Positions 2,962 through 52,900 of a stretch of 64,000 bases of DNA are shown one piece after another. The stretch comes from Owenia fusiformis (Eukaryota > Annelida > Polychaeta > Sabellida > Oweniidae): NCBI GenBank assembly GCA_903813345.2, contig CAIIXF020000001.1:44099885-44163884 (forward strand), given 5' to 3'. Under the pieces are notes generated by a model. It was not told where the DNA came from and searched no databases. It was given only the letters and a program-made list of their open reading frames with translations. Numbering within the stretch: position 1 is the first letter of the stretch; each line of letters begins with the position of its first letter. The translations under genes and the position numbers were made by a program.

Positions 2962-4418
2962 CCTGCAACTTAAGTCAGGGTAAAGTTACATTATGTCATT
3001 TTTTGACAATGGGTACTGAAAGGGACCTCCAAGAAAGACTATGGTTCTGGGTCACAAATCAAATCTGGAAAACTGAGTTACAAATGACATTTTTCAATAG
3101 CTCAAAAATATATAAACCCAAGTCCAAAGGAGTTAGCAAACTTTGATCAAACATTCTGTGAAGAGTAATCCTCACACAGGTGATGACATGTGGATTTTTC
3201 AAATTCCTGACAGTAGCACTTGCATGATTAGTAACAAAATAATTTAGCCCTAATGTTTATACAATTGTGTACAATCATAAACTAGTTGTAAATATTTTAT
3301 CACATGACCATATTTGTAAACAGATATGGATATGGATAAATAGGTCAATTTTACAATGAATGCATTACTGAATCTAAGATCCACAATATAGGCTTATTAA
3401 CCTGGTTTCAAAATAATTACATAATAGAAAAACAAAACAATGCCATATAAGCATCAATTATCAAACCCAATAAGGAACAAATATGTTGTTTCACAAAGTG
3501 TGAATATGCGTGCAGAATGGCACACGACCTCAATCCTCATTAACATATTCATAAAACAAACATGGCGGATTAGATCACCAAAATGTTAGGACTTCATGAT
3601 ACAATTTCATGACCATGCATCATTAAAAGACATTAACAACCATTTCCTTATCATATCATGTAATCAGTGAGTCCAAACCGATGTAGGCATGTAATGATAG
3701 ATGATATTCGAAGTTATATTTTGACCCACAAAAAATTCTAAAAATCATGAGGTTGAAAATTATTCCATGATTCAAGGCCTAGATTCCAGATATTTCAAGG
3801 TCGATACTATGTTGTTTAATTCTAATGTTCTAGTAACTATGATATACATACCTCAATTTCTAGCAAGCGCTAGTATATCACCGGGGAATGATGTTTATTG
3901 AAATATTATTCGGGAAAACCATAGGCAATATTTGCTTCCTCACTCACAAGGTGCCCGTAAAAATTTCTAAAGGATGTAGTTCCACATTTGATTTCTTTGA
4001 ATCTTATTCAAACGTCTATATATATGATCAAACAATTGAGAATATAAGATAGCATACTGTGATCTTGATTGATTTTTGTTGTATTGAAAGGAAAGAGTGG
4101 ATTTTATTTCTTATGAGGCTCAGGTCAGCGGATTGATATTTCATGGAAATTTCTTTTAGGGATCGACTACTCTGTACCAAAAGCATAATAAACATTCAAA
4201 TTGCAAACATTTTTCTCACTAAGAAAGTGTAATTATAAAAAAACATTACAAAACATTTATGAGAAGTCAAGAGAACGCTATCTCATTTGAATGGATCTAT
4301 TTCTCACAAACTGTAATCATAAAGTGCCACTTCTATTTTCATTGAATCAAAATGACATTATATGTGGTGAGTCGTGACCTACATCTTGAGCTGACACGAC
4401 AACCATCAACTGATCAAC
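2962..4418. promoter_or_regulatory. KDM4/TXNDC12 divergent intergenic region
   Basis: The two start codons face away from each other about 1.46 kb apart, so promoters of both genes probably lie here. The 5' noncoding exon of KDM4 inferred from the acceptor at 2963-2964 should also be here, but I cannot place it. I see no TATA box at a sensible distance from either gene and no CpG-dense stretch. Several short open frames look like chance. Confidence 0.4.
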
Positions 4419-7400
4419 ATGGTGCAAATCGACTTAGCAATTTTTACATTTATTTCACTCATAATCTTCCAGTTAACATCAGCCAATGATCTTGCAAGGG
4501 GTAAGTGTGCTTATACTAGCCATTAGTTGTACATTTGAGAGACTGCCTGCGGCAATTTTTGGAACAGGCAACATCTTACAATATGATCTGTATAAAATTA
4601 GAAGAGACGAATGTCTCAGTCTGTCACCTGAGACTTGATGGTGTCAGGTGTCTTGATGGTCTCAGGTGCCACACAGTCACAGTGTGTAGTAGGGCTGTGC
4701 CGGAACCGGTTCGGACGGTTCGGAATCGGAACCGGAACTTGGTCTCACGGAATCGGAACTTTCGGAACCCCTTTTGGTTCACAAATGAAAATAATTATGT
4801 ATGAGTGAGTTCGACGGCGATCATGACGATATCGTCGTCCAAGTTTGTCAGGTTAACACTTACCTTTCCTGTCAAGCAAGTTTGAATGTTTTTACGAAAG
4901 AAATAGACTCTAAAATCTGTAAAAAGAGAGAAAATTCGATCTTTTTTCTACTTGTTTTCACTTCCGGCTGCTCTGACCATAATGCGCATGCGTAATTGAA
5001 AAAAATCAATTAATCTGATATTGTAAGAGTTAAAATGTAATTAATTAACGCTGTTAGATTGTAAGACGTCATGGAAAAGTAAATTTATTCATTTATCTAT
5101 GAGTATTTTCGCCCCGTCGATTCCTACTTCCAATGAAATCCGAAGGTCAAAGTTCGTAAAACAAAACTTGATTTCTGTTGATTTCTCCGCTATTTATTTT
5201 GTTTATGCGAGTAATACACATGCAAATTGGATGTAGTTTGAAGGAAAACATCACTGGAGGAACAATGGTCACGGATATTAACGATTCAAAGCAAGTACTA
5301 AGGTAAGGGTCCGATATTGTTCCGAAACCCTTCGGAACATGATATTAAAATTCCGAATTCCGGTATTTTAACAAAAGTCCGCGGTTCGGACCGATTCCGG
5401 TCGAATGGCACGGCCCTAGTGTGTAGCCTAGCCTAAATGATCAACATTCAAGTTGAACCTGAAACAGTCAGTCTGCTTTATAATATCTACAGTATTGGCC
5501 GCTAGAAAATCGTGAATGTTGAAACTGAAATAGACTACATGTAGCTCTAGTCTACTGAAATCAGTTGCTAATCTTTAGATCTTTATCTCAAAAATGTTGA
5601 AAGCCCATGGTTACAAACATCACAATCATCCGTATCGAAAGTCTGTAGAGTTTATCAGCTGCTTAATATGTGTCAATCATTACTTTCCTTTCTCAACAAG
5701 TCGACATTTTGTAGCGAGAAATCAAATTAGGCGTTTGGCAGAACTTTAAGAAATAGCGTTCGAAATCTTTCTTAAGGTGCCATGGAAGTTAACAGGAAAT
5801 GACAAAACAGGAAGTGACAATTTTTTTGCATTTTTAGAAATTTTTTGAACAAAGATAACAGGGTTCTGTTTTGATCTCCAGTCAATTCAACCAGTTCCAA
5901 ATACCATTTACAGGTCCAGGATCACAATGTTCATAGTCAGAATGACCCTAAACATGATGAAATAACCTTTTCAGCCCTATGAAAATGTGACTGAAAAATA
6001 GCTAAAAGTAGGAGGTAGGAAAGGTCGCTAAACAGAATCTTTTGAATTTTTCAGAAAATGTGCCCAATTTATTGCTCTAAATGATACACATGCTATCTAT
6101 TGCAAGACTTACGCCTGCCACAACCGTCACCATGTTAATCAGTGTTTTTTAAGTAGCGCAAGGATCCTGCCATGACCGTGGTAGTGTTATCGTGTAAGCC
6201 TGGTATAACCGTGACAGGCTGGTATAACCGTCACAATGCTGTATTCTATTGCAAGGCCTGTCATGACCCTGGAAGTGTTATCGTGGAAGCCTGGCGCGAC
6301 CGTAGCCTTTATTGTGGTTTATAAGCGAATGTGAATATTAATGTATAGTAGTAATTTTGATTTTGACATGATTAAGGTAGTTAAACACCATGATCATAGT
6401 ATTAAACTGTTTAATTGTAATGAGGATCACTTAAAATTGTTAAGGATATTCCTGGCATTAATGTCATACATATTTACTAGTCATTGCAATACATTATAAC
6501 GGTCATAGTAGAACTAAGCCTAAATCTCTACATTACCACCCTCATACCTGGCCTTGCAATACTATATTACATTGTCACGGTCATACCAGGCTTTGCGATC
6601 CCATAATACATTGTCATGGTCATGCCAGGTTTTCAAATACACATTGTCACGGTCAATTATAACAATCATAAATTTCTACATCACCACTCTCATACCCGAA
6701 CTTGGAATACTATATCACATTGCCATGGCGGTCATACCAAGCCTTGCAATACTATATCACATTGCCATGGCGGTCATACCAAGCCTTGCAATACTATATT
6801 ACATTGCCATGGCGGTCATACCAAGCCTTGCAATAATATATTACATTGCCATGGTCATGCCAGGCTTTGCAATACACATTGTCACGGTTATAGCAGTCCT
6901 AATCGTAAATTTCTACATCACCACTAAAATACCTGAACTTGCAATACTATATTACATTGTCACGGTCATGCCAGGCTTTGCAGTACTATATTACATTTTA
7001 CGGTCATACCAAGCCTTGCAGAACTATATTACATTGTCACGGTCATGGCACGCATTGCAATATAATACAGCATTGTCGCGGTTATACCAGGCTTTCACGA
7101 TAACATTACCACGGTCATGGCAGGATCCTTGCGCTACTTAAAAAACACTGAAAAACATGGTGACGGTTACGCCAGGCGTTAGTCTTGCAACAGATAGGGT
7201 CTCAAATGATACAATCTTTGAAAATTTGATATCATTCATAGATAAAGAAAAAGATGAAAAAACATGATTTGAAAAGTGATCTATTTTCCTTTTTATGACC
7301 GTAATTTTTGTTTAAGACAATTTTCTAAAATTTCAAAAATTTTATCAGTTAGAGCATTACATTATTGGGCACATTTTCTGAAAATTTCAAAAGATTCTGT

Positions 7401-10400
7401 TCAGTGACCTTCCCTAGCTCCTACTTTTAGCTATTTTTCAGTCACATTTTCCTAGGGCTGAAAAGGTCATTTCACCATGTTTAGGGTCATTCTGACCATG
7501 AACATTGTGATCCTGGACCTGTAAATGGTATTTGGAACTAGTTGAATTGACTGGAGATCAAAACAGAACTCTGTTATCTTTGTTCAAAAATGTCTAAAAT
7601 TATGCAAAAAAAATTGTCACTTCCTGTTTTGTCATTTCTTGTTAACTTCCATAGCACCTTAAATTTAGTAATCTCTGGAGATTTTGAACATTAGTGTATA
7701 TGCTACTTCATGAATGTTCCCTTCATCTGTATCCTACATTTCCAAAAATTTGTAAGTTATCAGCTGCTTTTGTGGCGATCAGGACTTCTCTTTATCCTCA
7801 AGTAGATATTTATTACCGATAAACCAAAATGGCTGTTTTGACGGAAATTCATGAAGTAGCGTTCAAAGTTTCCTGAGATATCTAAATGAACTTTATAAAA
7901 ATTCCTGAATTTCGGGTGCCTTATTTAGAAATCTCCCTCTAGCTCTGCCCACGCCATTCAAGATGGTATCTTCAGAAAATTTGTAATTTTTTGCTTCAAG
8001 CCATGTGAATGTGGAACCATATCAAAACAAAATCATAATTATTCATGACACACTTTTATTACTCGCTTTTCTCATATTTGAGATGATAACTTTTCGAAAT
8101 TACTTCTCTCCTGAACGACACTGTGTGCCAATTGAATCCCTATGAAATAAATACTTATGATTTCAGTTTGAAATATGTCTTCACATTTAGACTACTGGAA
8201 TAAACTAGAAGTAACCTTTAGTGAATCTGATGCGCCACAATGGAAATATTTTAAATTCAAGCTAGTATCTTATAATAAATTAGTCAAACTTCTGCAATGT
8301 AACTCATAAAATGATTTCATGATAAGCTTATTCTATTGATCATATTCAATATTTTAAGATTATCCTATTGAATATGCAGGTTTCTTAATTTAAACTACTT
8401 TTGGAGTTTGACATACTCTTACAATTTGACCTACTTTTGCAACTTGACCTACTTTTGCAACTTGACCTAATTATAAATACAATGAGTATAAGGACTCACC
8501 ATTATGAGCCCACATAATGGTGCCATCTTTTCTTTATATCATTTTTAACAACTTGCATGAGACACACAATCATCACAGTATTTTTGTTTTAATTTCTTAA
8601 AAGTAAACATTTTCTATGAACTGATGAACTTCCTTGATAAAGTGACTATAAAATGGACATTTTATTGCAAGATACAGTAAAACCTGTCTTAGTGAACACC
8701 TCTCTATAGTGAACTGTGTTTATTGAGCACCACTTCAAGACACAATTACATTGACTCCTGTATAAAAAAAACTCTTTTGTGAACACCTACCTACAGTGAA
8801 CACCTTTTGTGGCTAAACAGGTGATCACTATATACAGGTAATGTACACAGACAGATGAGGGATCCACACCCTTTTAACAAGTAAATTTATACTCAACTTT
8901 AGTATGCAATAAGTCACTGATACTTGACAGTTCAGTCAATATTCAACATTAGTTTATCAATGGTTGTCTAACTTTTCACAAAAAGCTGTGTAAACATTTT
9001 AAAACTAAGCCTTTGAGGTAAAATGCATGAGATACATTCAAGTGCTGTCAAGAGAAAATTTGATAAATGACTAGCTCTTCTCATCTTCAAACTCGATGAA
9101 TTTTATTGATTTGACAAACCATTCAATAAACACCAATTAATATTAAGTGCTTTTAGCTGTCGAATTTCAATTGAAATAAGACCATTTGTTTTTTGCTACT
9201 TCCATCAAATGTAATAAACTAGGCCATGCTATTGTGTAATTATCATACTATCGAGTTTAATTCATTTTTGCAGTTACATTTTATATTCACAGACTTGCCA
9301 ACCTAAAATGAAAATTTTTCGGGAGATTTAAAAAAAATTGCGGTAATTTTACGGGAGTTATTTTACAAATCCGGGAGTTTTTGCGGGAGTTTTTTTGAAA
9401 AAAAGCGGGAGTTTTTACGGGAGATTTTTAAAAAAACGGCAGTTTTTACGGGAGATTTAAAAAAACGGGAGTTTTTGCGGTAAATTTTGAAAAAAACGGG
9501 AGTTTTTACGGGAGATTTTGAAAAAACGTGAGATATTTTAAAAAAGGTATTTTTCGCGCTAAATTTCAAAAAACGTGACTTTTTTTACTGAAGATTCCAG
9601 AAAAAAAACGGGAGTTTTTGCGTAGGTTCTGAAAAAACGGGAATTTTTACGGTAGACTTTGAAAAAACGGGTTTTTTTGCGGTAGATTTTTAAAAAAACG
9701 GGAGTTTTTACGGTAGATTTCTGAAAAAACGGTAGTTTTTACGGTCGATTTCTGAAAAAACAGGAGTTTTTACGGTAGATTCTGAAAAAACGGGAGTTTT
9801 TACGGTCGATTTCGGAAAAAACAGGAGTTTTTACGGTAGATTTCGGAAAAAAACTGGAGTTTTTACGGTAGATTTCGGAAAAAACTGGAGTTTTTACGGC
9901 AGATTTTTGAAAAAAACGGTAGTTTTTACTTTAGATTTTGAAAGTTAATAAATTAGTTAGAACTTATAATCTAAGATAGATGTCACTTACGTTCATTATT
10001 TCACAGCAGTCCCTACCCATAATGCGCCTTATATTGCGGGAATATTTTGTTTAGCGCCATATAAAAACAAAATCTATTCTCCCGACAGAAGTATGACAGA
10101 ATATGAACTGACCCCCGTTTGTGGACATTTGGTGTGGAAACTTATACCGAACTGATCGCAGAAAAGCAATTTGAATCATGGGAATGAAGTACTTTTAAGT
10201 TATTTATGAAAGTATCGATAGTGAACCATGGGAGCCAATCCTTGGAGTAAAAGAAAGAAGCATGCCTACAATAATCAAGGTCACAAATTTGTCAAATTCC
10301 TTTTAAATACGGTAGATTTCGACAGCAAAAAACGGAGATTTTACGGGAGTTATACCAAGAATACGGGAGATTTTACGGGAGTTATACCAGAAAACAGGAG

Positions 10401-13400
10401 ATTTTACGGGAGTTATACCAAGAATACGGGAGATTTTACAGGAGTTATACCAGAATACGGGAGATTTTACGGGAGATTTCAGCAAAAATACGGGAGATTT
10501 TACGGCCATATTTTTAAAAAAATTACGGGAGATTTTAGTAGAAATACGGTACGGGAGTTTACGGTAGTTTTTACGGGAGAAAACGGTACGGGAGTTTGGT
10601 ATTTTTTACGGAAAAACAAAACATTTACGGGAGATTCCCGTAAAAAAACGGGAGGTTGGCAAGTCTGTATTCATTATTTTCTTTGAATTTTTCTGTAATT
10701 TTAGTTTTAAGTTAGTGTTTAGTTTTCAACCAAACTTGTTTTAAAAAACCATCACTAAACAAAGGTTTCATTTTGAGCTAGCAAGTGAATACTTCAATTA
10801 ATTTACACTTTTGTCTGAATATTTGAGAGGCTAAAATTTAAGTTGAAATTGGACTTTTACATCAATAAAACTTTTAAAATGTGTTTAGTATCAGTTACCA
10901 TATTAGAGGTTTTATAGTTGATTAGCTGTTAGTTAACTTACAAATGCTATTCAGGCCGTTGACTTTTGCAAAGTTTAAAACTTGGTCCAAAACTGCCCAC
11001 TGTGCAAAAGGAATTTTGCATTCAGCCAACCATGACCCCATGTGAATTAATGACATATCATTAAAAGAGGGGAAATATGTCATGATGCAAGTAAATGAAA
11101 TTGATGGCGTCATCACTGGTTTTGTGGTTAAAGATTTATTTGCTCGTTGCATTTTTTTATATCCACTGTATAGAATTGATTTGATTTTATATTTTCAGCC
11201 TATGGTTAATATTCTGGTACTCATCACATTTTACTTTTTGCAAATGATATGGATCATCACAATGTTAACATTTTGTTTGTTCTTTGTTGCAGGTTGGGGA
11301 GATGGTATAGCATGGATGTCTTTTAAAGATGGTTTAGAAGCTTCAAAAGAAAGGTAAAAGTTTAATTACAAATGACGAGTACTATACATTTTAAAATTAA
11401 GGAACTTAAATTTCATTCCAGTACAGTAAATATTCATGTACTGTACATGGTTAACTACATTTTTCATCAAAATCCGATAGAAATTGAAAAAGTGAGTTTT
11501 CGTTGAAATACTTATAATGGGATAGATATTATTTAAGCCTTTTATCAGCAAGCAGCATCACTTATATATTCAAGTGATTACTAAAGAAACCAATATTTGA
11601 AATACAATATACTCCCACTTTCAAAATTTCAATCTTCACCTATTACGTGTACAAGGTTAACATTTACAAAACTTGTGACACCCTGCCATTCAACTCATAT
11701 ATCCAAAAGAGAAGTGACTATTGGACTTTGAGATTATTCCAGATTCCATGTACTAGATCTGGTAGATGTAAAACCATAACCACCTTTTGTCAGGGAGAGA
11801 TCAATTTCTAAACTGGACTCATTTATTTTACTACCATACTTATATTGACTATATGTACCGTATTGTTCATAGTTTTATATTGTGTTTTCATTCATTTTTA
11901 GTGGGAAACCACTGATGCTAATCATACACAAGACCTGGTGCGGTGCTTGTAAATGTAAGTTAATGGAAAATATTTTTCATCCTCAACAGTTCTCCAGACA
12001 TCATCTACTCTGTTTCTTCCTTCCTTAAAGGAGGTATGAGTTTTGGAAGCCTGTGTTGGGAGGATAACATTTTTCAAAAAGTAAATTGGATACCATAAAT
12101 CAAAAGATTTCTTGATACGAAAAATAAAAGCTCAAAGTGCTTTCTTTGATAAAATAACTAACTAGAAATTTTTGTCAGTGAAAATGAGACTTGATAGATT
12201 CATAGCAATTTATGACTTATTTATTGGTTATCTTATGTGTAAAGTAGATCTAATTGTTAATCCCAAAATCAGTTGCTACAGTTGCCACCGGGTGCCTGTT
12301 CCTTGTCTGTCTCAAATATACCAGGAGAGTTTTAGAGAAAAATAGATTAACTTAAGGAAATTTGTTGGTCTTTTAATGTAGAATGCTGATGTGAACTGAT
12401 AAGATATCAATTTATGCATATGCCATACAACAAGTATTACCCATGATATAATGTGATTATGCTACAGAAACTCCATAGCTCATTCATTACATAGCAAGAT
12501 CACCTTAATTTGGCCATCTTGCCATCACATCTTGCAAATTCCATGATCATGAAATAACCTATAATTCTTGTTGCAGCATTAAAGCCCAAGTTTGGTGCAC
12601 ACAAGGGTATAGAAGAGCTTAGTGAAAACTTCATCATGGTCAATACAGAAGATGATGAGGAACCTGAAGGAGAAACTTACAAACCCGATGGTGGTTACAT
12701 TCCTAGAATTCTATTTTTAAGTAAGTTCTTCATTTTAATAAGTAGAAATGCTGCCAATATACTTACTCTTTTTGTAAATCTATAAAATAAACTTTTTGTT
12801 AAAGAATGAAAAGCATGTGACCTCATGCTTATTGAACAATAGGTATTATTTCCTAGGCTGCCTATTCATTGTATAGAAAATGTCAGGGCAGTATTCACAA
12901 TACTGAACTGATACAAAGTTAAAGGGAGAATCGGATCCATAGGGAGTGACAAAATTGCAAGCAACATGTACAGTTAATCTACCAATGCAATATATTCCTT
13001 ACAATCTCAAATATTATATCTTCAAAAGATCACCAATATGTTATAAATCGGTGAAGTTATTAACGATTCAAAGTTCCAAAATGGGTAAAAACTAATTTTG
13101 CCTTTAAAAACTAAAAAGTTTTACTTTTGAGATTTTAGCCAAGAATCGCATACAAAATGCTTTTGTCCATGTTTTTCTTTACTAACTTGATTATACAGAG
13201 CAAGATTTAAACTGAATGAAATTATAAAAATAAGTAATAGTTTGTCATTCTTTGATTTATTTAGACTACAAACACACATATATCTTACATTTTAGGGATT
13301 TTGGATAGTACACTTATAATATTAATTACTCTAATTCTCAGTTTTAACATCTGTCACTCTAATGATCATATTTCCATTGCAGAAACAGATACATTAGAAC

Positions 13401-28950: not shown

Positions 28951-30400
28951 CAAGGCATTAACATGACAAAATGTCACCACCTAAAACAATTTGGTGAATT
29001 TAAAGCAAGTTGGAAAATACTTTGACCTTGAGAAGGTCATTGAAGGTCAAAGGTCAAATCTAAAGTCAGATTTGAACTTCTGAGAACTTGTAAAGTCAAA
29101 TTTGAACTTTTGAAAAGATGTAGATGATTTTGAAAAAAAAATTTGGTCAATTTGAAGCAAGTTGAAAACAGACCTTTTTGACCTTTTTTGACCTTGAGAA
29201 GGTCATTAAAGGTCAAATGTCAAATCTAAAGTCAGATTTGAATTTCTGAGAACATGTAGATGATTTTGAAAAAAAAAATTAGTCAATTTGAAGCAAGTTG
29301 AAAAAGACCTTTTTGACCTTTTTTGACCTTGAGAAGGTCATTGAAGGTCAAATGTCAAATTTAAAGTCATATTTGAATTTCTGAGAACATGTAGATGATT
29401 CTGAAAAAAATTTTTAGTCAATTTGAAGCAAGATGAAAAAATACCTTTTTGACATTGAGAAGGTCATTGAAGGTCAAATGTCAAATCTAAAGTCAGATTT
29501 GAATTTCTGAGAACATGTAAATGATTTTGAAAAAAGAATTTAGTCAATTTGAAGCAAGTTGAAAAAAGACCTTTTTGACCTTTTTTGACTTTGAGAAGGT
29601 CATTGAAGGTCAAATGTCAAATCTAAAGTCAGATTTGAATTTCTGAGAACATGTAGATGATTTTGAAAAAAAAATTTAGTCAATTTGAAGCAAGTTGAAA
29701 AAAGACCTTTTTGACCTTTTTTGACTTTGAGAAGGTCATTGAAGGTCAAATGTCAAATCTTAAGTCAAATCTAAAGTCAGATTTGAATTTCTGAGAACAC
29801 GTAGATGATTTTGAAAAATTTTTTTAGTCAATTTGAAGCAAGTTGAAAACAGACCTTTTTGACCTTTTTTGACCTTGAGAAGGTCAAATGTCAAATCTTA
29901 AGTCAGATTTGAATTTCTGAGAACACGTAGATTTTGAAAAAAAAATTTAGTCAATTTGAAGCATGTTGAAAACAGACCTTTTTTGACCTTGAGAAGGTCA
30001 TTGTAGGTCAAATGTCAAATCTAAAGTCAGATTTGAAGGTCAAATGTCAAATCTAAAGTCAAATCTAAAGTCAGATTTGAATTTCTGAGAACATGTAGAT
30101 GATTTTGAAAAAAAATTTAGTCAATGTGAAGCAAGTTGAAAAAAGACCTTTTTGACCTTGAGAAGGTCATTGAAGGTCAAATGTCAAATCTAAAGTCAGA
30201 TTTGAACTTCTGAGAACATGTAGATGATTTAGAAAAAAATTGAAGTCAGTCTAAACAGTATTTGTTAAGTTATAGGAAGTTGTAAGAAATTGTTACAGAC
30301 GCCGGACGCCGGACGCCAACCTCCAACCTCCAACCACCAACCGCCGTCGCAAAAAAACGGAGACCATAACAATATGTCACCACTTTTGGTGGTGACATAA
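28951..30400. mobile_element. Satellite-bearing non-autonomous element (copy A of ATGTCACCAC family)
   Basis: The left end is GGCATTAACATGACAAAATG followed by TCACCACC. The right end is ACCATAACAATATGTCACCA followed by the hairpin partner TTTTGGTGGTGACATAA. Between them is a tandem array of a roughly 136-bp unit, about nine copies (28985 to about 30240), then a GACGCCGGACGCC tract. The same ends occur in copies at 38521, 41178, 44374, 45079 and 57523. One inverted subterminal motif, a 3' hairpin and internal tandem repeats resemble non-autonomous Helentron/DINE-type elements. That assignment is inferred. Confidence 0.72.
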
Positions 30401-34900: not shown

Positions 34901-37900
34901 GTTGTTAAAAATACAGTATGCACACATGTACAGTGCAAATGTGGTGGTTTTGACAACAGGCTGCAATATTTATGGTGGTTCTGCTATCGTTAACTTATCA
35001 TTAAGAGCAATGCAGTTTTGCTGCATCATTGCTTATACTTTTGATATTTAAATCAATGTATTATAGAGAAGCTGTTACCTCACTCAGAACTCTGCAATAT
35101 TTTCAATTAAGCATTAAATTACACCCATGATATACATGTACAATTGTACATAGCATCACATAATACATACCATATTAACATAGTCCAGCTGGGGTGGCTC
35201 ACTGTCGTGCTCAGCAAAAATGTCAAAGAATGCAGCCTTAAGGTAAAAAAGTCTGTCATAGGCCGGCTCAGTGTCAGACCTTGCAGCATCTTTGCTACCA
35301 AACCACAATGGAACCTGAAAAATGACATACATGTAACAAAAAAATGTTCATGCTCTGCAGTACATATTGTTCCCAGGATGAGGGAGCATTTATACTACAG
35401 TATGTTTTTGACTGAATGTTAAAAAATATATACAGTATACTGCACTAATATATGTTTATCATCATGAACAAGAATATTCATCCTCCAATCACAGGGCTTA
35501 AATATCCAGAATATATTCTTTCTTTTTACCCCCTGCGATAAGCAGTTACCATTTCCCCGATTAAGAACTCGCAATCTGATTGGCTGTTGCTACACTGTGA
35601 CAGAAATCATGTACAAGTCATCGCGCATAATTAGATCACATCACATGATTCAGTTAAATCGGGCGCTTCCAAATTGTTTATAGCAGGGGAAAGAAGGAGG
35701 TACAGATTCTGAACACAGTACCTGCTTAGGAGGATGAAGAATATTATGATCTAAAATAATCTTGAACAATAAGTGCATTTCTCCTACCTCATTGTACTGT
35801 TCCCTGGTGATGTATCCAGTCTCCCTCTGGTCCATCTCCTGACACTTGGCGAGAGCATCTAGCAGGTCAGTCTGTGTGGCAGTGGGCCATGGCTGGGCAC
35901 ATGCTAGCAACAACTTCCTCCAGTCTATGTATTCACCATCTAAAATACGTTTTATGTAACTGATTATATCTTAATGATATCAAATGGATCTTTCATGTGG
36001 GTTTCAAAGTAAAATGAAACAGTTTCATAGGATATAGCATTGATGAAAGAACTTAATTTAAAGAGTGTGGGCAAACTGGCTCAGTGGTAGAAAATCAGGA
36101 ATTTTAGTATTGCATCAAGACTCTTGAACTCTCCCAAACATATACCTCACATCATCGAGAAAAGCTGAAGTATATTTAGGAGGGGGGGGGGGGGGGGTTA
36201 CAAGGGCTTGATGAGGGCTTGTAATTCACCAAAATTTTGAGAATTATAACCTATCCATTTACCTGTTGATAGGACGGTAGCAAGATCTGACATCTGTTGG
36301 GTAGAGATTCCCTTCCAGACCTCAGGTAGTGTCTCCAGCCCATGGGTCAGGGCAGTCATATCCTGGATGGTGTCTATGAAACCCTTGGTGGATATAACGC
36401 CACTCGGTGCTATCTCCATGAACTGAAATGTTAAAAGACATGTCTTGAAATACATTGGTTGAAATGTTGGAGGAAATAGTGAATCCATTAATTAGAAGAA
36501 ACAGGGATTTCATCACTTGTATTGGACTGCATTTTTTAGCATGATTAATAGCAAAATCGTCAGACTTTGGAGAGTACAATGTAGCATGCCTCACTGAATA
36601 CATTATTTAATAAATATAGCTGCTTTGTTATTCAACCAAATCAATTAATTTTCCACAACTGTAGATGTTTCAAAACGTTCCCATAGAAATGAGTGAATTA
36701 TTGCCTCACCTGTGTAAACATGTTGACTAACTATTGTCTGACCTGTGTAAACATGTTGACTAACTATTGTCTTAACTGTGTAAACATGTTGACTAATTAT
36801 TGTCTCACCTGTGTAAACATGTTGACTAACTATTGTCTCACCTGTGTAAACGTGTTGACTAACTATTGTCTCACCTGTGTAAACGTGTTGACTGACTATT
36901 GCCTCACCTGTGTAAACGTGTTGACTGACTATTGTCTCATTTGTGTAAACATGTTGACTAACTATTGTCTCCCCTGTGTAAACGTGTTGACTAACTATTG
37001 TCTCACCTGTGTAAACGAGTTGACTAACTATTGTCTCATTTGTGTAAACGTGTTGACTAACTATTGTCTCACCTGTGTAAACGTGTTGACTAACTATTGT
37101 CTCATTTGTGTAAACGTGTTGACTAACTATTGTCTCACTTGTGTAAACATGTTGACTAACTATTGTCTCACCTGTGTAAACATGTTGACTAACTATTGTC
37201 TTAACTGTGTAAACATGTTGACTAGCTATTGTCTCATCTGTATAAACATGTTGACTAACTATTGTCTCAACTGTGTAAACGTGTTGACTAACTTTTGTTT
37301 CACTTGTTTAAACCTGTTAACTAACTATTGTCTCAACTGTGTAAACATGTTGACTAACTATTGTCTCACCTGTGTAAACATGTTGACTAACTATTGTCTC
37401 ACCTGTGTAAACATGTTGACTAACTAGTGTAAACATGTTGACTAGCTATTGTCTCACCTGAGTAAACATGTTGACTAGCTATTGTCTCATCTATGTAAAC
37501 ATGTTGACTAACTATTGTCTCAACTGTGTAAACATGTTGACTAACTATTGTCTCACCTGTGTAAACATGTTGACTAACTATTGTCTCACCTGTGTAAACA
37601 TGTTGACTAGCTATTGTCTTACCTGAGTAAACATGTTGACTAACTATTGTCTCAACTGTGTAAACATGTTGACTAACTATTGTCTGACCTGAGTAAATGT
37701 GTTGACTAACTATTGTCTCATTTGTGTAAACATGTTGATTAACTATTGTATAACCTGTATAAACATGTCGACTAACTATTGTCTTAACTATGTATTGTAA
37801 ACATGTTGACCAACTATTGTCTTACCTGTGTAAACATGTTCACTAACTGGTTGATAGTGAAGTATTCACTGGTGACAGCCTCTACAGGGGAAGGTGGTGG

Positions 37901-37933
37901 GCTTGGCGTCCTATTGGCCACAACTGCAACATC
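31980..37933 (-). CDS. SPEF2: SPEF2 exons 35-42: C-terminal EF-hand-like region and end
   Basis: Exons 37826-37933, 36263-36422, 35788-35939, 35171-35314, 34001-34122, 32779-32911, 32228-32434 and 31980-32048. They encode FMEIAPSGVISTKGFIDTIQ, EYIDWRKLLLACAQPWP, an EF-hand-like DQRETGYITREQYNE (loop degenerate, so Ca binding is doubtful), DSEPPQLDYVNMLMYFAAAP, and the SPEF2 tail motif YQELGQDNLEPVCYTTLLEH followed by PIIQDIV. The last exon adds 22 residues before TAA. The donor of exon 35 is the source of the 33-bp array in the following intron. Confidence 0.95.
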
Positions 37934-43900: not shown

Positions 43901-46900
43901 GGTAGATAGAAATGGAAAATGAGTACATTTTGGAGAAGAAAAGAATAGAACTTATGACATGTGCAAAAAGCAAAAATTTTCTGAAATTATCTTGAAATAA
44001 TAATAACTTTAAAATAACATTATTGGATACATGTTATTTTAAAGCAATTAAAACAAGTTCGCACACTTTGACAGAATAATTTAAATATAATAAATGTAAA
44101 TTATACCAAGATGCCTATTCATAAAGATTCTGGAATTTAAATAATGTTTGAGTTTTAAATGTATATGTGCATGTATATGGTATTCCAGCATCTTTCTAAA
44201 TGAGACATATAGGTATAATGTAGTGCTGAAGTAGCCTAATATATAATATAAGACTACTTCATGATAGATACTATCATATAAGCTAACTTTAAATGACAAA
44301 TCACAGTAATACACACCCCTTTCTTCACCTGTACACCAAATAGAATAAATACCATTAATGTGATATTAAAACAACGCAATAACATGAGAAAATGTCACCA
44401 CCTGCAAATGATGGTAACAATAGTGTTACTATTGCTACAGACAACGACCCAAATCCCGAAGCCAAATGTCAGTGAAAAAATGGTGGCTTTAGGTTTTTAG
44501 AATAAATATATCCAACTGAATATCAAACGTAATCCAAATTTTTCTTTGAATCATGATATTTTGAATGCTGCAGTACACAATGGAACATAAGACTTACAAT
44601 TTCAGCAATTGCTTTGTTTGCAGCAATGTATGCATCAAAGATGAGTTTATCATCAGGATCCATTGGTGGTTGAGGAGTCTCAGCTTTATCTTCATTTGCA
44701 TGAGATGCAGACTGTTTGCGCTCCTTCTTTCCTTTCTTCTCTTTCTTCTCCTTAGCAGGAGCAGGTTTGCTCTCCTTCTCTGGATCTGGTGACACTGGTC
44801 TCCTTGGGACTAGAGGGATCCTGAAATAACAAGCAATTAATGGCCAATGAAAACAATCTAAGAAATAATAAGCAATGGCAGATGACAGGAGTCTCTGAAA
44901 TATTGAAATGGTAATTCAAATGAAAAGGTTTAATCCTTAAAATAATTGATGAAAGTAAGGTGGTCAATGCATGTCAAAAGTCTATGAAAATAGCAAATTG
45001 GAAATGAAAATGACTGGAGAAAACATCAATGAAGGTATAGTTGATAATGAATGAATGCAAAACAAGACTTTTAATAAACAAGGCATTAACATGACAAAAT
45101 GTCACCACCTAGTTGCTCAAAATATTATGAGTTCAATCTTAAGTCAGATTTGAATGTCTGAGAACTGGTAGATTATTTTGAAAAAATAAATTGGTCAATA
45201 AGAAGCAAGTTGAAAAATATGTGAAATCTCAAATCTAAAGTCAGATTTGAACTTATGATAACTTGAAGATGATTTTGAAAAAAGAATTGGTCAATTTGAA
45301 CCAAGATGAAAAAATACCTTTTTGACCTTGAGAATGTCATTCAAGTTCAAATCTATGGTCAGATTTGAACTGTTGTGAACTTGTAGATGATTTTGAAAAA
45401 AAAATTGGTCAATTTGAAGCAAGTTGAAAAAATACCTTTTTGAACTTTTTTGACTTTGAGAAAGTCATTGAAGGTCAAATTTCAAATCTAAAGTCAGATT
45501 TGAACTTCCGATAACTTGTAGATGATTTTGAAAAAAAGAAATTGGTCAATTTGAAGCAAGTTGAAAAAGACCTTTTTGACCTTTTTTGACCTTGACTGCC
45601 GTCAAAGAAAAAATGGAGACCATAACAATACGTCACCACTTTTTGGTGGTGACATTATATATATAAATCAAAATAAAGGAAAATGGTTCATAGAAATACC
45701 AGTAATCAATGAATGTTGATGCATGCATGAATCTGTCACAGAATTTTAATAAAACATAATTATGAAAATAGCAAATGGAAATAATAAAAAGACATTAAAA
45801 TTTCATCAGATATTTGACAGAAGAACTGCAAAATCTTAGAATTCTCTTTTTACTTTGTTTTAATATCCAAGGGGTCTGCAGGTGGGGCTGCGGGTGGTGG
45901 TGTAGGGGTCTTTCCAATATGATCATCACTCTTGCCCTTCTTCCTTCTCCCAGATGGTGTGCTGGATTTGCTCTTTTTGGGCTCAGGGGGAGGGGGCTCT
46001 GGGGCCTTAACTTCCTCTGCTGCGGGTCCTGCTTGGTCTCCCTCACTCCCAACTGCACTCTTGCCCGATCCTGGCCTTTCTGTTGGTGGCAACTACAAAA
46101 TGGAATAATTTCATTAACACTGTTTACATATAAAGTATAAATTGTAACATGATGGGTATCTTTATCAACACTGGCAGGTGTAATTTGAAATAAATCAAAT
46201 ATGCTAACAAAAACAAGCCAAGATACACCAAATATAAAGTAATGTGAACAGAATGTAGGTTCCAACTTGAGCATCTGCATCTATTAAATCCAAAGCCTTT
46301 CTTGCACCAAGCCTAGGAGAGAGAATGGGAGAGTTTAACACAGGGGCTTAATGAAGGACTTACTCAAGACACTGACACAACAGACACCCCTGTACATCAT
46401 TCAACACAATATCCAACCCCCATGGTTTAACTTTAGGTTGTTCACTTACCTCCACAAGAGCTATCCTGGCATACTCTATGCTCAGTTCATCAGGAATGTG
46501 GCCTTCCATGCCTTTATAGTAGTCCTTCAACAGTCTCACTGTGTCTTGGAATCTATCAGTCTCAGCCTACAAACACAATGAAGCAAGTTACTTGTTAGGT
46601 GAGACCTGCTGCTGCGGATGGCAATATAGATGTCCTTACATAGAGATGATATAACGCTGGGCCTCTTTTGAAGGAAAAGTGTTTATATTTGAAATTGAAA
46701 CCCAATTTGATGGAAACAATGTTGAAAAGGGCAGGTTACCTGCATAAGTGTGGTATAAGTGATAATTTTAATTTACCTGCATAAGTGTAATGTAATGATT
46801 ACTGAGGACGCCTAGATGATCATCTAGCCAGCTGTCAGTCATGATTGTTGTACGTTCTGACTCTGCTTGTTCCTTCCTCTCATCACATATACTCCATAGT

Positions 46901-49900
46901 CTTTCACGTATGTCATCTACACGTTGATGCAGCTCTGAGACTGTCTCTTCATCACCTCTCATGTCATCTGGGACCTGATTGTACTCCTGGGAAAATGGTT
47001 AATAATTAAAGAGGAGTATACCATACATGTTTACACTTAGAGATGGACATGTCCAAGGATCTGTTGCATCTAAAACGACTGTACTATAGGAAGAGTTATA
47101 CTTTATATCATACATGATGAAAGTTAAACCAAGAAATTTTTTGGTTCACAGTTGTTCATGCTCTAATAACATTTCTAAAAAGGCTCAATAAAGGGAGTAT
47201 CGAAAATATCAAGTCAACTGAATTCTTACCTCTTGCCATTGATCCACAAACTCTTGTTTATGATCCGGCCTTCTGAGGTAAGCCATATAGTCCTTCTTGA
47301 TTTGATAGAAAAATTTGAAGATTTTCTCTCGTTCTTCCCTGACATTGCGGAAAACAACCTTGGTGTGATCTATGTAGTTTGTCTCCACTGCCTCCCAGTG
47401 TGGCGCTAATACGTTTGCAAGCTCCTGTAATACAATGTTTGGACTGTGTGAGGTCTTGAAAGAATACTAGTTCAATTAATATTTATAAATACAGTAAAAC
47501 CTGTCTAAGTGGAACAAGTTTTGGTACTTCTAAAAAGTGTTTCACTAATAGAGCTTCATTTAACATTAAGTTAGTTGTCTTGGGACTCTGGAAAGTTGAG
47601 AGGTGTACACAAAAAGTTTAAATATTTGATCAAATTAAGATTATATGTGTGTTAAGTTGATGCCTCAGCATTTATATCCCCTTAATAGAGGAAGTTAAGA
47701 TTTAGAATGTATCCGTTCTCAATGATTTGAAAGTCTGAACATTTAAGATCTTAAATTCATAAATATTTGACATTATCGAATGAAGTATAAATAACTTTAA
47801 GCCCTATAGCTTCTTCTTACCTCATCAATGGGCTGATCCACATATTCCCACTCCTCAGATCCAGGCTCAGGTGGTGGGGTTCCTGGGGGTTCTTCTGGCT
47901 CAGGTTCAGGTTCTGGCTCTGGTGTCTTAGCTTTCTTCCCTGATCCCTTGCCCTTCTTTGGGCTTTTTGGTGAGGCTCCTGCAAACAACACCAGAAAGTG
48001 CATTAACATTTATATGTACATAATAGCAGGCCAGTAGCCAGGATTTGCCGAGGGGGGGTTCAGTTTTCAAAAATTTACAGGGGGGGGTTAACATTTGACA
48101 ATTTTGGTCCAAATATGACTGAGATCACTTGAGAGGTGCTCAAAATTGTGAAAAACTGCATGATTTTGAAAGAATTTCTGGCCAGAGGGTGTTCGCCCGA
48201 ACCCTGCGAACCCCCCCTGGCTACAAGCCTGTAAAAGTGTTGATTTTTGTCCAATATGGCTTGTTTGAGCCAGGTCTGTACAGTGTGAATATAAAACATG
48301 AATTTTAGATTGAGGAACAAGAAACATGAAAAACATTAAACATCTCTTATCGAATTCCTTACCCTTCTTTGAAATTTTTGACGAGGATTCTACAAACAGT
48401 GAGATGTGCAAAGACAGTTAAAATATCTGTGAACAAATATTTTTTCTTTGGGAACAAACATTTATATGTTTATGTGAGTGTACACTGTACAACATGATAT
48501 ACTTATTTACAGAAACAAGAGAAACATTTTAGTTGTCTATCCTGTTTTCTTAAACTTTCTTGGACAATTTGAAAATGAAGGCTATTTTTATAGTTTTTAT
48601 GGTTCCTTTATTTAAACAGTATTAATATACAACATAAACAGGGCCTAAGCCAAAGCATTATTGGCCCTGTGGGTAACAGAATTTGAATTTACATAAAAGA
48701 TGGCTCTCCTGTTTGGAGAAATGAACTGATTGTTTTTGACTCATCATAAATACATGTTATTTTAGACAATTTCTATTATCTTACAAAGAAAATCTGTGAA
48801 AGATTTAAAAACTAGACCTTTAATAGCATTATTCAATAAAATGTCACCAAACAGGAGAGTATTTGTCTTGTGTTCTAAAGAGCATCTTGGTGAAAAAAAA
48901 GAAATCAAGTTCAGGCATTATCCTAAGTTCCCCCCCAAAGTTCTTCTCTTTCTCTTAATAATAGCGGGCAGTTGAAGATGAGGTGCTTAGTAGTTTGGTC
49001 TCTGTAGCCACATAAACAATTTGTACCGTCAACATTTCTAAAATTGTGCAGGAAAAAGTGGCCTGTAAAAATAAAATAAAATCACATCTAATGCGATTTA
49101 GAAGGATTTCACTTTTTGTGATAATTCTAGCTTAGATGTAGGTAATGGTAAATCTTTGTCTCGGAAATGTTTTTTAACATTCCTTTTAAAACTAAATTTT
49201 TTTTGTTTTCTTTTAGGTAATTTGGGAGCTTTTCCCATTCGTGCATTGCTTTTATTATTGGCGATTTAGAAAAGGAGCCAGGTGATCTTGGAATATTAAA
49301 TTCTCTGACATTTCTTAGGTTTACATCTCGAACAGGATTTCTGTGTTGGTCAAAAATTCGTTGGAGATAAGAAGGGACAGTTTCATTTTTTTCGACTTTG
49401 TGCATAAGATTTAAGTATTTTTCATTTCTTCTGGTCAAAAGATCATTCCAGTTTAGGGATTTAAATAATTTAATTTTTGAAGTTCCCTGAATGCATCCAC
49501 TTACTAGTAATGCAGCTCTGTAATGTACTTGGTCAAGTTTTGCAAGATCATATTTGGTGGCTTTTTCGAATAAAATACTTCCGTATTCAAGTTTAGGAAG
49601 TATAAAGGACAAGTACATATTTTCAAGATGTTTGGATCTAACTTTGTTCTTTAAAGCCTTGAAAGGATTCAACATTGTATTACATTTATCAATTATTTCA
49701 TGTATATGTGAGCTAAAATTTAAGGCTATTAGTGAACAGTACATAAAATAATTTATCTTAATTTCTTTATTGGGTGAATAACTGAATAGAAATTGGAAGA
49801 GAGTGAATAACACAAGATAAGACTGTATATATAAATAATCCCTCACCTCTGCTAGCTTTACTTTTCTTTCCCCCTTCGCTGGCCTCATCACTCTTGACAC

Positions 49901-52900
49901 TCTTGCTTCTCTTGGGGGACTCTGCACTCTTACCTCGCTTGGTGGATTTGCCCTCCTTTGATGAGGCAGACCCTGATCTCTTACCAGAACCTATCAACAT
50001 TCACGAAATATCCATTTAAGAGGGTCAGTGAAAAGTTTGAGTTTTTATTATCAATAAGTATTACTTGCATATGAATTAATTTCACATTAATAAATAATCA
50101 TTATAAAAACTTATGTTTAAGTAAGACATTTTGGTGAAAAACAGTGCCCATGTACAACAGTTTACCAGTTTAAATCAGGCTCATTGTGATATTATAATAT
50201 AGATAGAACATAACTGTGATAAGCTTAAACAAGCATTTATTAAATAAATAAACATCTACAACCTAACAAAACATTGTTTAAGGTCAAAAGGTATGACCCC
50301 TATATAGTCCATTTAAAAACCCGTGGTATTGTTCTAAATAACGCCATAGTTTGCTTCTAGGGTACCTAGTATGCCACTTTTTGGTATCAAAATAAAGAGG
50401 AGGAGTTCAACTTTCATTTGAATTACGAAAATAGCGATGTAGGTCAAAAATAGTTCCGACGTGAGTATGTTTACTACGCGTTTGCCTGTCATATCAGAAT
50501 TGAGGAAGTGGTAGCAAACTCGAGTTACAATAAATGGACGCTGATATCTCAAAAAGTAACCTGACTCCCTATAATTTGATGTAGATCAATCGAACCCCTA
50601 TATGAACAGGTACATTTTGATATATAACTATGGGGGTAAGCGTTTTATAGTTGGTCACGAACGCCATATGTGCAAAGTATTGTTATGAATTTTCGAATTT
50701 GGTGTTGGATTACGGTACTCATACCTTAAATTCGTAAAGTAATTAATAATTATCCCTGAAATTCATTCTTCAATTGTTAAACTTCAAACATGGATGTTAA
50801 ACAACTTCAATCATTCTGGTATGTAGTCTACCCCTGTTCAACTGACCTGCTCTGGAGCCAGCTCTGGATCCTTTCCTTGAGGGGGACTCCTCTACAGGAG
50901 GTGGAGGGGTGGCAGGTTTGGGGGGTTCCTCAGGAGGTTTCACCTCTGGCTCTACAGGTTTCTCCTCCTTCACTTCAGTGGGTGCTGATTCAGACTCTTC
51001 CTTGTCTTTACCTTGCAGCTGAAAATGTGAAAGACCAAACTTAGCAGGAATATTTATTTGAACTATACAGTGCACTGATTGAATTACCTTTTCAAAAAAC
51101 AATTTCATTCCTACTAGGCATACATTTATTATGTAATTAATTGAAAATATTCATATTCAGACTAAAAAGTTGTGATATATGTATTTTGTAATTCTAAAAT
51201 GAGTAAATAATAAAACCACTTACTTTTTTAAGAGTATCCTCAAGAATTGTTTCCATCTCTAGGAACACTGTCTCTTCACTTTGGGAGCCATCAACCTTCT
51301 TGAGGGTACCAAACTTTGTAAACCATTTCTCCATCTTTGGCCAGGCATCTAAGAAACCAGTGATTCTGAAACATAAATGAAATGAGTCATTCTTTCCAAT
51401 AAACATGTATATCTTTGACAGTATGTTAGTTCAATTATATAAATAATCGTAGTCATTAAATGGTCCATTTTACATTGTGTAGTAACTCTCTACACAGAAT
51501 ACCTAGTAATCTGGCTATAACTACTAAAGGTGTGAAATGCTGGGGTATGTTGCTCAGAAAATAAAGTTTTACTTCATGGAAAACCAAGCCATTAAAATTA
51601 CAAGATGTCAGTTCCCAGTTATGTCATTGAAAACAGTTAAAGTGAAACAATATGGTACAGAAACTGACAACTACTGGCCCGTAGCGCCCCTGGCCAATAA
51701 TTCAAAATCATGCAGTTTTCATTGTTCTTAGCACTTTTCAAGTGAGTGATTTACAATCTTTGAGCCAAAGTGAACCCCCCCTGGAATGTTTTAAAAAGTG
51801 ACCCCTTGGTACATCCTAGCTATGGGTCTGACTACCACAGAATGCCCATCATTAAAAGTGAGCATAACTATGTCACCGCCAAGAAAAAAACAATACACAT
51901 GTATAGTAAATATACAAAAACATATGAAAATATACAAAAATGTAAAAAAGTAGTCCTACCTGTGCTGAATCTGTTCTTGATCATGTGCCGGATCTTGGAC
52001 TGGGACTACTTTCTCTTGTTTCCCTACACCAGTAGCACTGCCCTCTGGTGGAGGTTTAAACTCCTGATGGTACTCCTCTTCACCTTGGAGAGCACCTACG
52101 TAAACAAACAAAACATGTTTCAATATTCTCACTTTGAGGAATTGCAATGTTCGTCCTCCTATGCACAATTTAGTTTAATACAAGATAAAATGGAAACTGA
52201 TGAATCATGTTCTATCCTGTGTCACATTCTCATATTAATGATATCCAATGCCTTACAATTCAAACAACAGAGTCAATGTACCAGTTTCATCCTACACACT
52301 TTTGTTCCTGTTTGAATATTCTTAACAGGTTTTGCTATTTCTTACTTTGCTATTTTCCACTTTCCAACTCTAATTGGTCAATAAACACCATATAGTTTTC
52401 TACAAAATGCAATGCATACTATTTTGATCGGAAATCAACTTCCTGGAAAGAAACTCCGAAAGAAAATTTCATTTCTTTTAGAAATAGAATATCCTTCGTT
52501 TATTTAGCGGATTTTGACCAAATAAGAGACTGAAGGTAAGATCTTTATCAATGCATTCATCCAGAGTTGATTTTTTTTATATGACCTGCATTGCGTCCAA
52601 GTGACCCCTCATTTTCATTGTTTGGGGTCCCTATAGTAAAAATCGGGTCCTCTACATTATGGGACGGCATTAATGAAAGCACAGCAATGTATGTGGCTTA
52701 AACCCACAACTTGATTAACAAATCTTTAACTTACAAGTTCTACCAGCAGAGCGCTTCAGGCATATCTCATTATTGACATCAATGAGTATTACAACATCTA
52801 TGCCACTGTTCTGTACTGTAGTTGTGTCTGATGGTTTAGGCTCTGGGGCCAACTTGGATTTCCTCTTGTCCTTACTGCTGGCTGAAATATTAAAATAGTA

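Follow-up and report, generated by a model that had tools for sequence, protein, structure and literature searches.

Recursive-splicing (ratchet) sites are joined AG|GT signals and are known mainly from long introns. For the tandem repeats at exon-intron boundaries that have been termed mirages in amphioxus, Canestro et al. (2002) is reportedly the source, and Borensztajn (2006) is said to be the source on the repeats in intron 7 of human factor VII. Mirages are tandem repeats of exon-intron boundaries and have been described in the amphioxus genes Adh3, globin, troponin C, and PGBD5 (PMC3087553, PMC3902484). According to these accounts, they seemingly leave regular splicing undisturbed, are variable in length, and could be a source of new introns (PMC3087553; also PMC3902484); the unit of the Adh3 mirage is given as 10 to 72 bp long (PMC3087553). 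In intron 7 of the human factor VII gene (F7), the first of a series of 37-bp repeats is described as holding the real donor, with further donors in the homologous repeats, and normally only the most upstream donor is reported to be used, by oriented scanning (PMC6627357).

The array examined here lies in an intron of SPEF2 within a 64,000-nucleotide stretch of the genome of the annelid Owenia fusiformis (the window, that is, the whole stretch of DNA analysed). The joined C-terminal piece of the translated gene matches both the Pfam family SPEF2_C (PF24082, E = 4.4e−36) and the PDB chain 9ijj_4M, sperm flagellar protein 2 (E = 3.5e−21). In the latter comparison, the protein alignment continues ungapped over the splice junction (TINQLVNMFTQ|FMEIAPSGVI here, TIEQLDNLRDQ|FLDMAPKGII in the solved SPEF2); the next exon begins with TTCATGGAG, whose translation is FMEIAPSG. 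Because there is no gap over the junction, the exonic bases of the repeat unit represent an old stretch of coding sequence, and splicing from 37826 yields the right protein.

Tandem Repeats Finder places the array at 36699-37848, with a period of 33, 35.0 copies, 88% matches, and a score of 1723. When the units are aligned on the minus strand, from 37847 to 36699, they resolve into 34 full 33-bp units, counting the one at the exon end, plus a 22-bp unit at 37446. The repeat unit is made up of the last 22-23 nt of the SPEF2 exon and 10-11 nt of the intron, and the array extends in the intron direction only. The positions of these features, and of the homology-supported exons at the comparable arrays discussed below, are given in Table 1.

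Table 1. Features of the SPEF2 locus (positions in the window) and homology-supported exons at other exon-anchored arrays in the genome
Feature	Position	Strand	Evidence or description
SPEF2 exon, 108 nt, 36 codons, phase 0-0	37826..37933	minus	Encodes DVAVVANRTPSPPPSPVEAVTSEYFTINQLVNMFTQ; AG acceptor directly upstream
Authentic donor CAG|GTAAGACA (CAG|GTAAGA)	37818..37828	minus	Last exon base 37826; U1 pairing −11.0 kcal/mol
First repeat unit: 22-23 nt of exon and 11 nt of intron	37815..37848	minus	22/23 exon bases equal to array consensus
Intronic minisatellite: 33 more 33-bp units of full length, with a single 22-bp one	36699..37814	minus	Consensus GTTAGTCAACATGTTTACACAG|GTGAGACAATA
Five exon-adjoining units without a donor as strong as the authentic one	37645..37814	minus	U1 pairing, unit alignment
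Host intron, 1403 bp, ~80% array	36423..37825	minus	Ends CATTTCAG; sequence and protein alignment over junction
Rieske_4 exon, exon-anchored array			Pfam 3.4e−8
Peptidase_M24 exon, exon-anchored array			Pfam 2.7e−7; PDB Xaa-Pro aminopeptidase 3, 2.7e−16
DHC_N1 exon, exon-anchored array			Pfam 5e−5, below Pfam's own cut-off
Kringle exon, exon-anchored array			Pfam 6.6e−6, below Pfam's own cut-off
Il2rg exon, exon-anchored array			Pfam 6.1e−8
B56 exon, exon-anchored array			Pfam 4.7e−11; PDB 1.6e−16
KIAA0895-like exon, exon-anchored array			PDB 5.2e−7

To locate possible copies of the unit, we searched the 498-Mb genome. All 16 matches of a 99-nt query fall inside the array itself, as do all six matches of the exact 18-mer ATGTTTACACAG|GTGAGA. 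A mismatch-tolerant word search returned one word with a single mismatch on C12 and many words with two mismatches elsewhere. Its totals were 27 on the forward strand and 60 on the reverse strand (the SPEF2 array being within the 60), compared with 34 and 37 for a reversed control, and words outside the SPEF2 array are therefore at control level. Dispersed copies of the 33-bp unit elsewhere in the genome were not found in the 99-nt, 18-mer, and mismatch-word searches, made with a tool that may skip simple or very common words. An origin from a dispersed repeat or introner was accordingly rejected, as these searches place the unit at a single locus and show no copies at other loci. Since the array was found at one place and the coding sequence at the exon end is old, we conclude that it grew from this donor into the intron.

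These results agree with an earlier note, made from the DNA letters, in its assignment of the gene to SPEF2, its description of about 34 units of 33 bp that combine the exon end with the intron start, and its placement of the array's start at the real donor, after 37826. They also bear out its derivation of the array from this exon: the coding sequence at the exon end is conserved, the real donor sits in the first unit, and the genome search located the 33-mer array at this locus only, next to its exon. The same note overstated the uniformity of the units when it had each unit that keeps CAG|GT read ATGTTTACACAG|GTGAGA, since the exact 18-mer occurs 6 times and other units have ACG, ACTC, GTCAGA, and the like.

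Several other repeats lie in the window. Two arrays of one repeat family (AATCTAAAGTCAGATTTGAA...) are found 15 kb apart, at 29091-30206 and 45135-45595, and ACGGGAG-type minisatellites, with similar-looking words elsewhere (e.g., at C1:2468160), occupy 9315-10617. IQNIFFLFTPCDKQL, translated from 35468-35680 on the plus strand and also from downstream of the array at locus L063, belongs to a dispersed repeat. On the minus strand, an open frame at 49130-49990 resembles, by eye, the end of a non-LTR reverse transcriptase.

We measured donor strength as pairing with the 5′ tail of U1, using the same 11 bases as at the U1 locus L054. Twenty of the 34 units retain GT and 18 retain AGGT. Of the array's 121 GTs, 14 equal the authentic donor in U1 pairing (−11.0 kcal/mol), the first of them 203 nt downstream of it. 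Splicing from any of the 14 would bring in a stop in frame with the exon, and a stop in that frame is present in 32 of the 33 donor-to-donor segments. The earlier note's estimate that about half of the units keep CAG|GT is thus roughly right, and the TAG that it had noticed in frame past the exon is borne out by the stops in these segments. In the 300 nt at the array's exon end, the predicted fold has a z score of −1.98, with 4 of 200 shuffles equally good, which is suggestive of an array RNA that may fold somewhat better than shuffles. In many units, an AACATGTT palindrome adjoins the donor and, in the predicted structure, enables pairing between neighbouring units around it; in about 10 units, the palindrome's T is replaced by C or G. 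As for U1 itself, its snRNA genes form a tandem array at C9:23745153-23771556, with a spacing of mostly ~750 bp, and further U1 genes are located elsewhere.

Other donor-bearing arrays were sought in the genome by searching for three CAGGTRAG words at intervals of 10-40 bases. The pattern gave 688 raw matches, a count inflated by long arrays, compared with 86 for the reversed word. When matches were grouped by hand into distinct loci, leaving out 12 loci of one dispersed element, there were at least 39 loci (SPEF2 included) versus 14 in the complete set for the reversed word. CAGGTRAG as a single word occurs 1.51 times as often as its reverse, and after correction for word frequency the locus excess is ~1.8-fold (binomial P = 0.03) as a lower bound. 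The enrichment of donor-bearing arrays is therefore modest. The raw counts of the 9-mer CAGGTAAGT alone are little different (72 versus 56), and an acceptor-type triple pattern gave 666 versus 353 matches. The dispersed element carries triplets of CAGGTAAG words at its 12 loci (including C1:38277824, C3:7460327, and C4:3454491), with spans of 71 and 79 bp that are ~1 kb apart where both occur; three of these loci were recognized by sequence letters, and the remaining nine were grouped by span length.

Eighteen of the other 38 loci were fetched, these being all the non-element loci among the matches listed, and none was picked by its flanks. In 12 of the 18 (L057, L059, L061-L064, L067-L070, L072, and L074), the start of the array is the donor of a putative exon, of which 6-37 nt can be aligned to the unit (just 6 matching exon bases at L057). 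Homology supports the exon in seven of these 12, six through Pfam and one through PDB. The exons at L059, L061, L063, L068, and L074 are putative, each called from an open frame, an acceptor, and a donor; a sub-threshold MBG_3 match (0.0087) is present at L061 and a weak fem-1 match (0.022) at L063. In the remaining six of the 18 arrays, a start at a recognisable donor was not identified, which counts against the mirage-type reading proposed below. A tRNA-synt_2d exon (Pfam 4.5e−4) is located ~50 bases before the array at L060, a Methyltransf_11 exon (Pfam 3.6e−6) ~90 bases before that at L071, and a putative exon without homology support ~130 bases before that at L058; inspection of the flanks of L065, L066, and L073 revealed no recognisable exon. 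At the kringle locus L069, the array (3456-6490 of the reverse-complemented locus) appears to occupy almost all of the intron that separates two kringle exons, and CRNPDNEP can be seen by eye soon after it.

As a frame-blind control, we took the longest open frame from 150 bases of flank and 30 bases of array on each side of all 19 arrays. At a Pfam threshold of E ≤ 1e−3, 4 of the 19 upstream sides had a match (L060, L064, L069, and L072) and none of the 19 downstream sides did; L060 is not among the exon-anchored arrays, and no match came from the SPEF2 exon itself. If the word's excess over the reversed word is used as a rough expectation of the share of true donors (~34%), the 12 exon-anchored arrays among 18 exceed it (P = 0.004), and the seven homology-supported ones among 18 show no excess over it (P = 0.40). 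We conclude that several donor-anchored arrays firmly exist in this genome, while the notion of donors as hotspots is not firm.

Within the 12 other exon-anchored arrays, a decoy equal to or stronger than the putative real donor is found about one unit downstream in eight (L057, L059, L061, L063, L068, L069, L070, and L074). The U1 pairing of the putative real donor versus the array donor is −10.6 versus −12.2 kcal/mol at L059, −8.3 versus −11.5 kcal/mol at L063, and −10.3 versus −13.2 kcal/mol at L074, three loci whose exons are all without homology support. Under the assumed frames, nearly all decoys within 1 kcal/mol of the real donor would lead to a stop in 12 of the 13 arrays (SPEF2 and the 12 others); the exception is L068, where four of five such decoys stay open.

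We propose that the SPEF2 array is, very probably, a mirage-type minisatellite: a near-neutral by-product of duplication that is spliced out with the intron while the 5′-most donor is used. We favor this reading because the unit contains old coding sequence, was found at one locus, and extends only into the intron, and because the same architecture with unrelated units is found elsewhere. The four upstream versus zero downstream matches of the frame-blind control, the stops that nearly all near-equal decoys would add in 12 of 13 arrays, and the accounts of amphioxus and F7, which describe this structure together with normal splicing, also speak for it. Some array donors pair with U1 as well as the real one does. 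The array may have begun with a short tandem duplication over the exon-intron boundary of SPEF2, in which the upstream donor stayed intact. With the first donor in place, the transcript would be unchanged, and the extra copies, being intronic, would be free to expand and could have been amplified and shuffled through slippage or unequal exchange. If the spliceosome keeps to the exon's 5′-most donor, the array would be removed with the intron and would remain near neutral. Both the duplication mechanism and the sole use of the upstream donor in this animal are what we infer here.

Could the competing donors instead have been silenced by selection, through mutation of the near-exon units and of the donor columns? 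The nine donor columns of the SPEF2 array are 10.8% variable, compared with 3.8% for the remaining columns, and the first decoy of equal strength does not appear before +203. The higher variability could hint at selection against decoys, which we do not claim: counted as distinct changes, the difference (11 of 27 in donor columns versus 15 of 72 in the rest) is not significant (Fisher test, P = 0.07). Moreover, donor-column variability is above that of the rest in five and below it in seven of the other 12 exon-anchored arrays, and eight of these 12 have an equal or stronger decoy one unit away, although arrays found through their intact donors are a sample biased towards donor retention. Edge units of minisatellites also often diverge, as they are not homogenised, which is stated for mirages in PMC3087553. 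We therefore regard selection against decoys as unlikely, if not negligibly so.

A regulatory role would be more improbable still. If transcripts spliced at array donors gained a stop and were degraded, the array would be a source of poison extensions, and its length could tune the level of SPEF2. The 14 sites that match the authentic donor in U1 pairing, all adding a stop, and the in-frame stops in 32 of 33 segments are what such a role would draw on. The five units nearest to the exon, however, contain no donor of equal strength, and the precedents, as described, report normal splicing (PMC3087553, PMC3902484, PMC6627357). The same architecture in unrelated genes also looks like a by-product.

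Stepwise removal of the intron, with each unit acting as a recursive-splicing point (a joined 3′/5′ splice site), appears very improbable to us. Many units do hold ACACAG|GT, and the pyrimidine tract of the unit (8/14, longest run 3) equals that of the SPEF2 exon's own acceptor (8/14, run 3). Yet the unit's tract is at the weak end of nine exon acceptors (8-12 of 14, runs 3-10), among which two have 8/14 pyrimidines and one of these, the SPEF2 exon's own, has a run of 3. The weak tract remarked on in the earlier note is thus indeed modest, but the acceptor of the SPEF2 exon is no better. The intron is just 1.4 kb long, and the presence of such tandem arrays in unrelated genes suggests a by-product. 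As to the functional ideas of that note as a whole, its account of the array's origin stands, whereas a decoy cluster, a U1 sink, alternative ends, and recursive splicing have gained no positive support; the sequence does not contradict them. All 14 equal donors would give a premature stop, and the precedents report undisturbed splicing. Finally, that the array predates the exon end, or is a dispersed repeat from which the exon took its boundary, is hardly credible: unit and exon do have 22 of 23 bases in common, but the solved SPEF2 chain shares the conserved exon end, and the repeat was not found at any other place in the genome searches.

The mirage-type reading thus places the SPEF2 array in a class of structure that is already known from lancelets, and the array is a further case of the mirage kind. 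The part worth following is the recurrence of donor-anchored arrays in this genome. We tentatively raise the possibility, which at present we would rather doubt than assert, that 5′ splice sites are recurrent nurseries of minisatellites and a standing source of intron growth, and that the arrays show the 5′-most position, and not U1 strength, to decide which donor is used. If this were true, the arrays, in which as many as dozens of donors match or surpass the real one, would be a natural experiment on donor choice. Engineered constructs are the usual means of studying how a spliceosome chooses among adjacent donors of equal strength; this genome has comparable arrangements of its own in ordinary genes, among them SPEF2, B56, the Xaa-Pro aminopeptidase, the kringle gene, a dynein heavy chain, and others. 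Because U1 pairing is clearly stronger for their first array donor than for the putative real one, L059, L063, and L074 could separate "strongest wins" from "first wins," their exons being putative. The arrays also offer a concrete route for the lengthening of introns, and they show, at many loci within a single genome, a structure that had been described gene by gene in lancelets.

The known systems differ in how closely they resemble the SPEF2 array. With ratchet sites it shares the joined AG|GT, but it has many tandem copies, a modest pyrimidine tract, and a short intron, and is a candidate from sequence only. The F7 repeats are alike in that the first repeat contains the authentic donor. 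They differ in gene and lineage and in the 37-bp unit, and donor use is described as tested in F7, whereas the SPEF2 array is known from its DNA (PMC6627357). Mirages, as described, come closest: both consist of short units over an exon-intron boundary, carry many AG/GT signals, and lie inside normal genes. As in mirages, the first SPEF2 unit holds the exon end and the donor, many but not all units keep a splice signal (GT in 20 of 34), and the 33-bp unit is within the range of 10-72 bp given for Adh3 (PMC3087553). Mirages are known at both ends of introns, whereas donor-side cases were examined here, and the amphioxus accounts describe them for single genes, whereas many candidate loci can be named in this genome.
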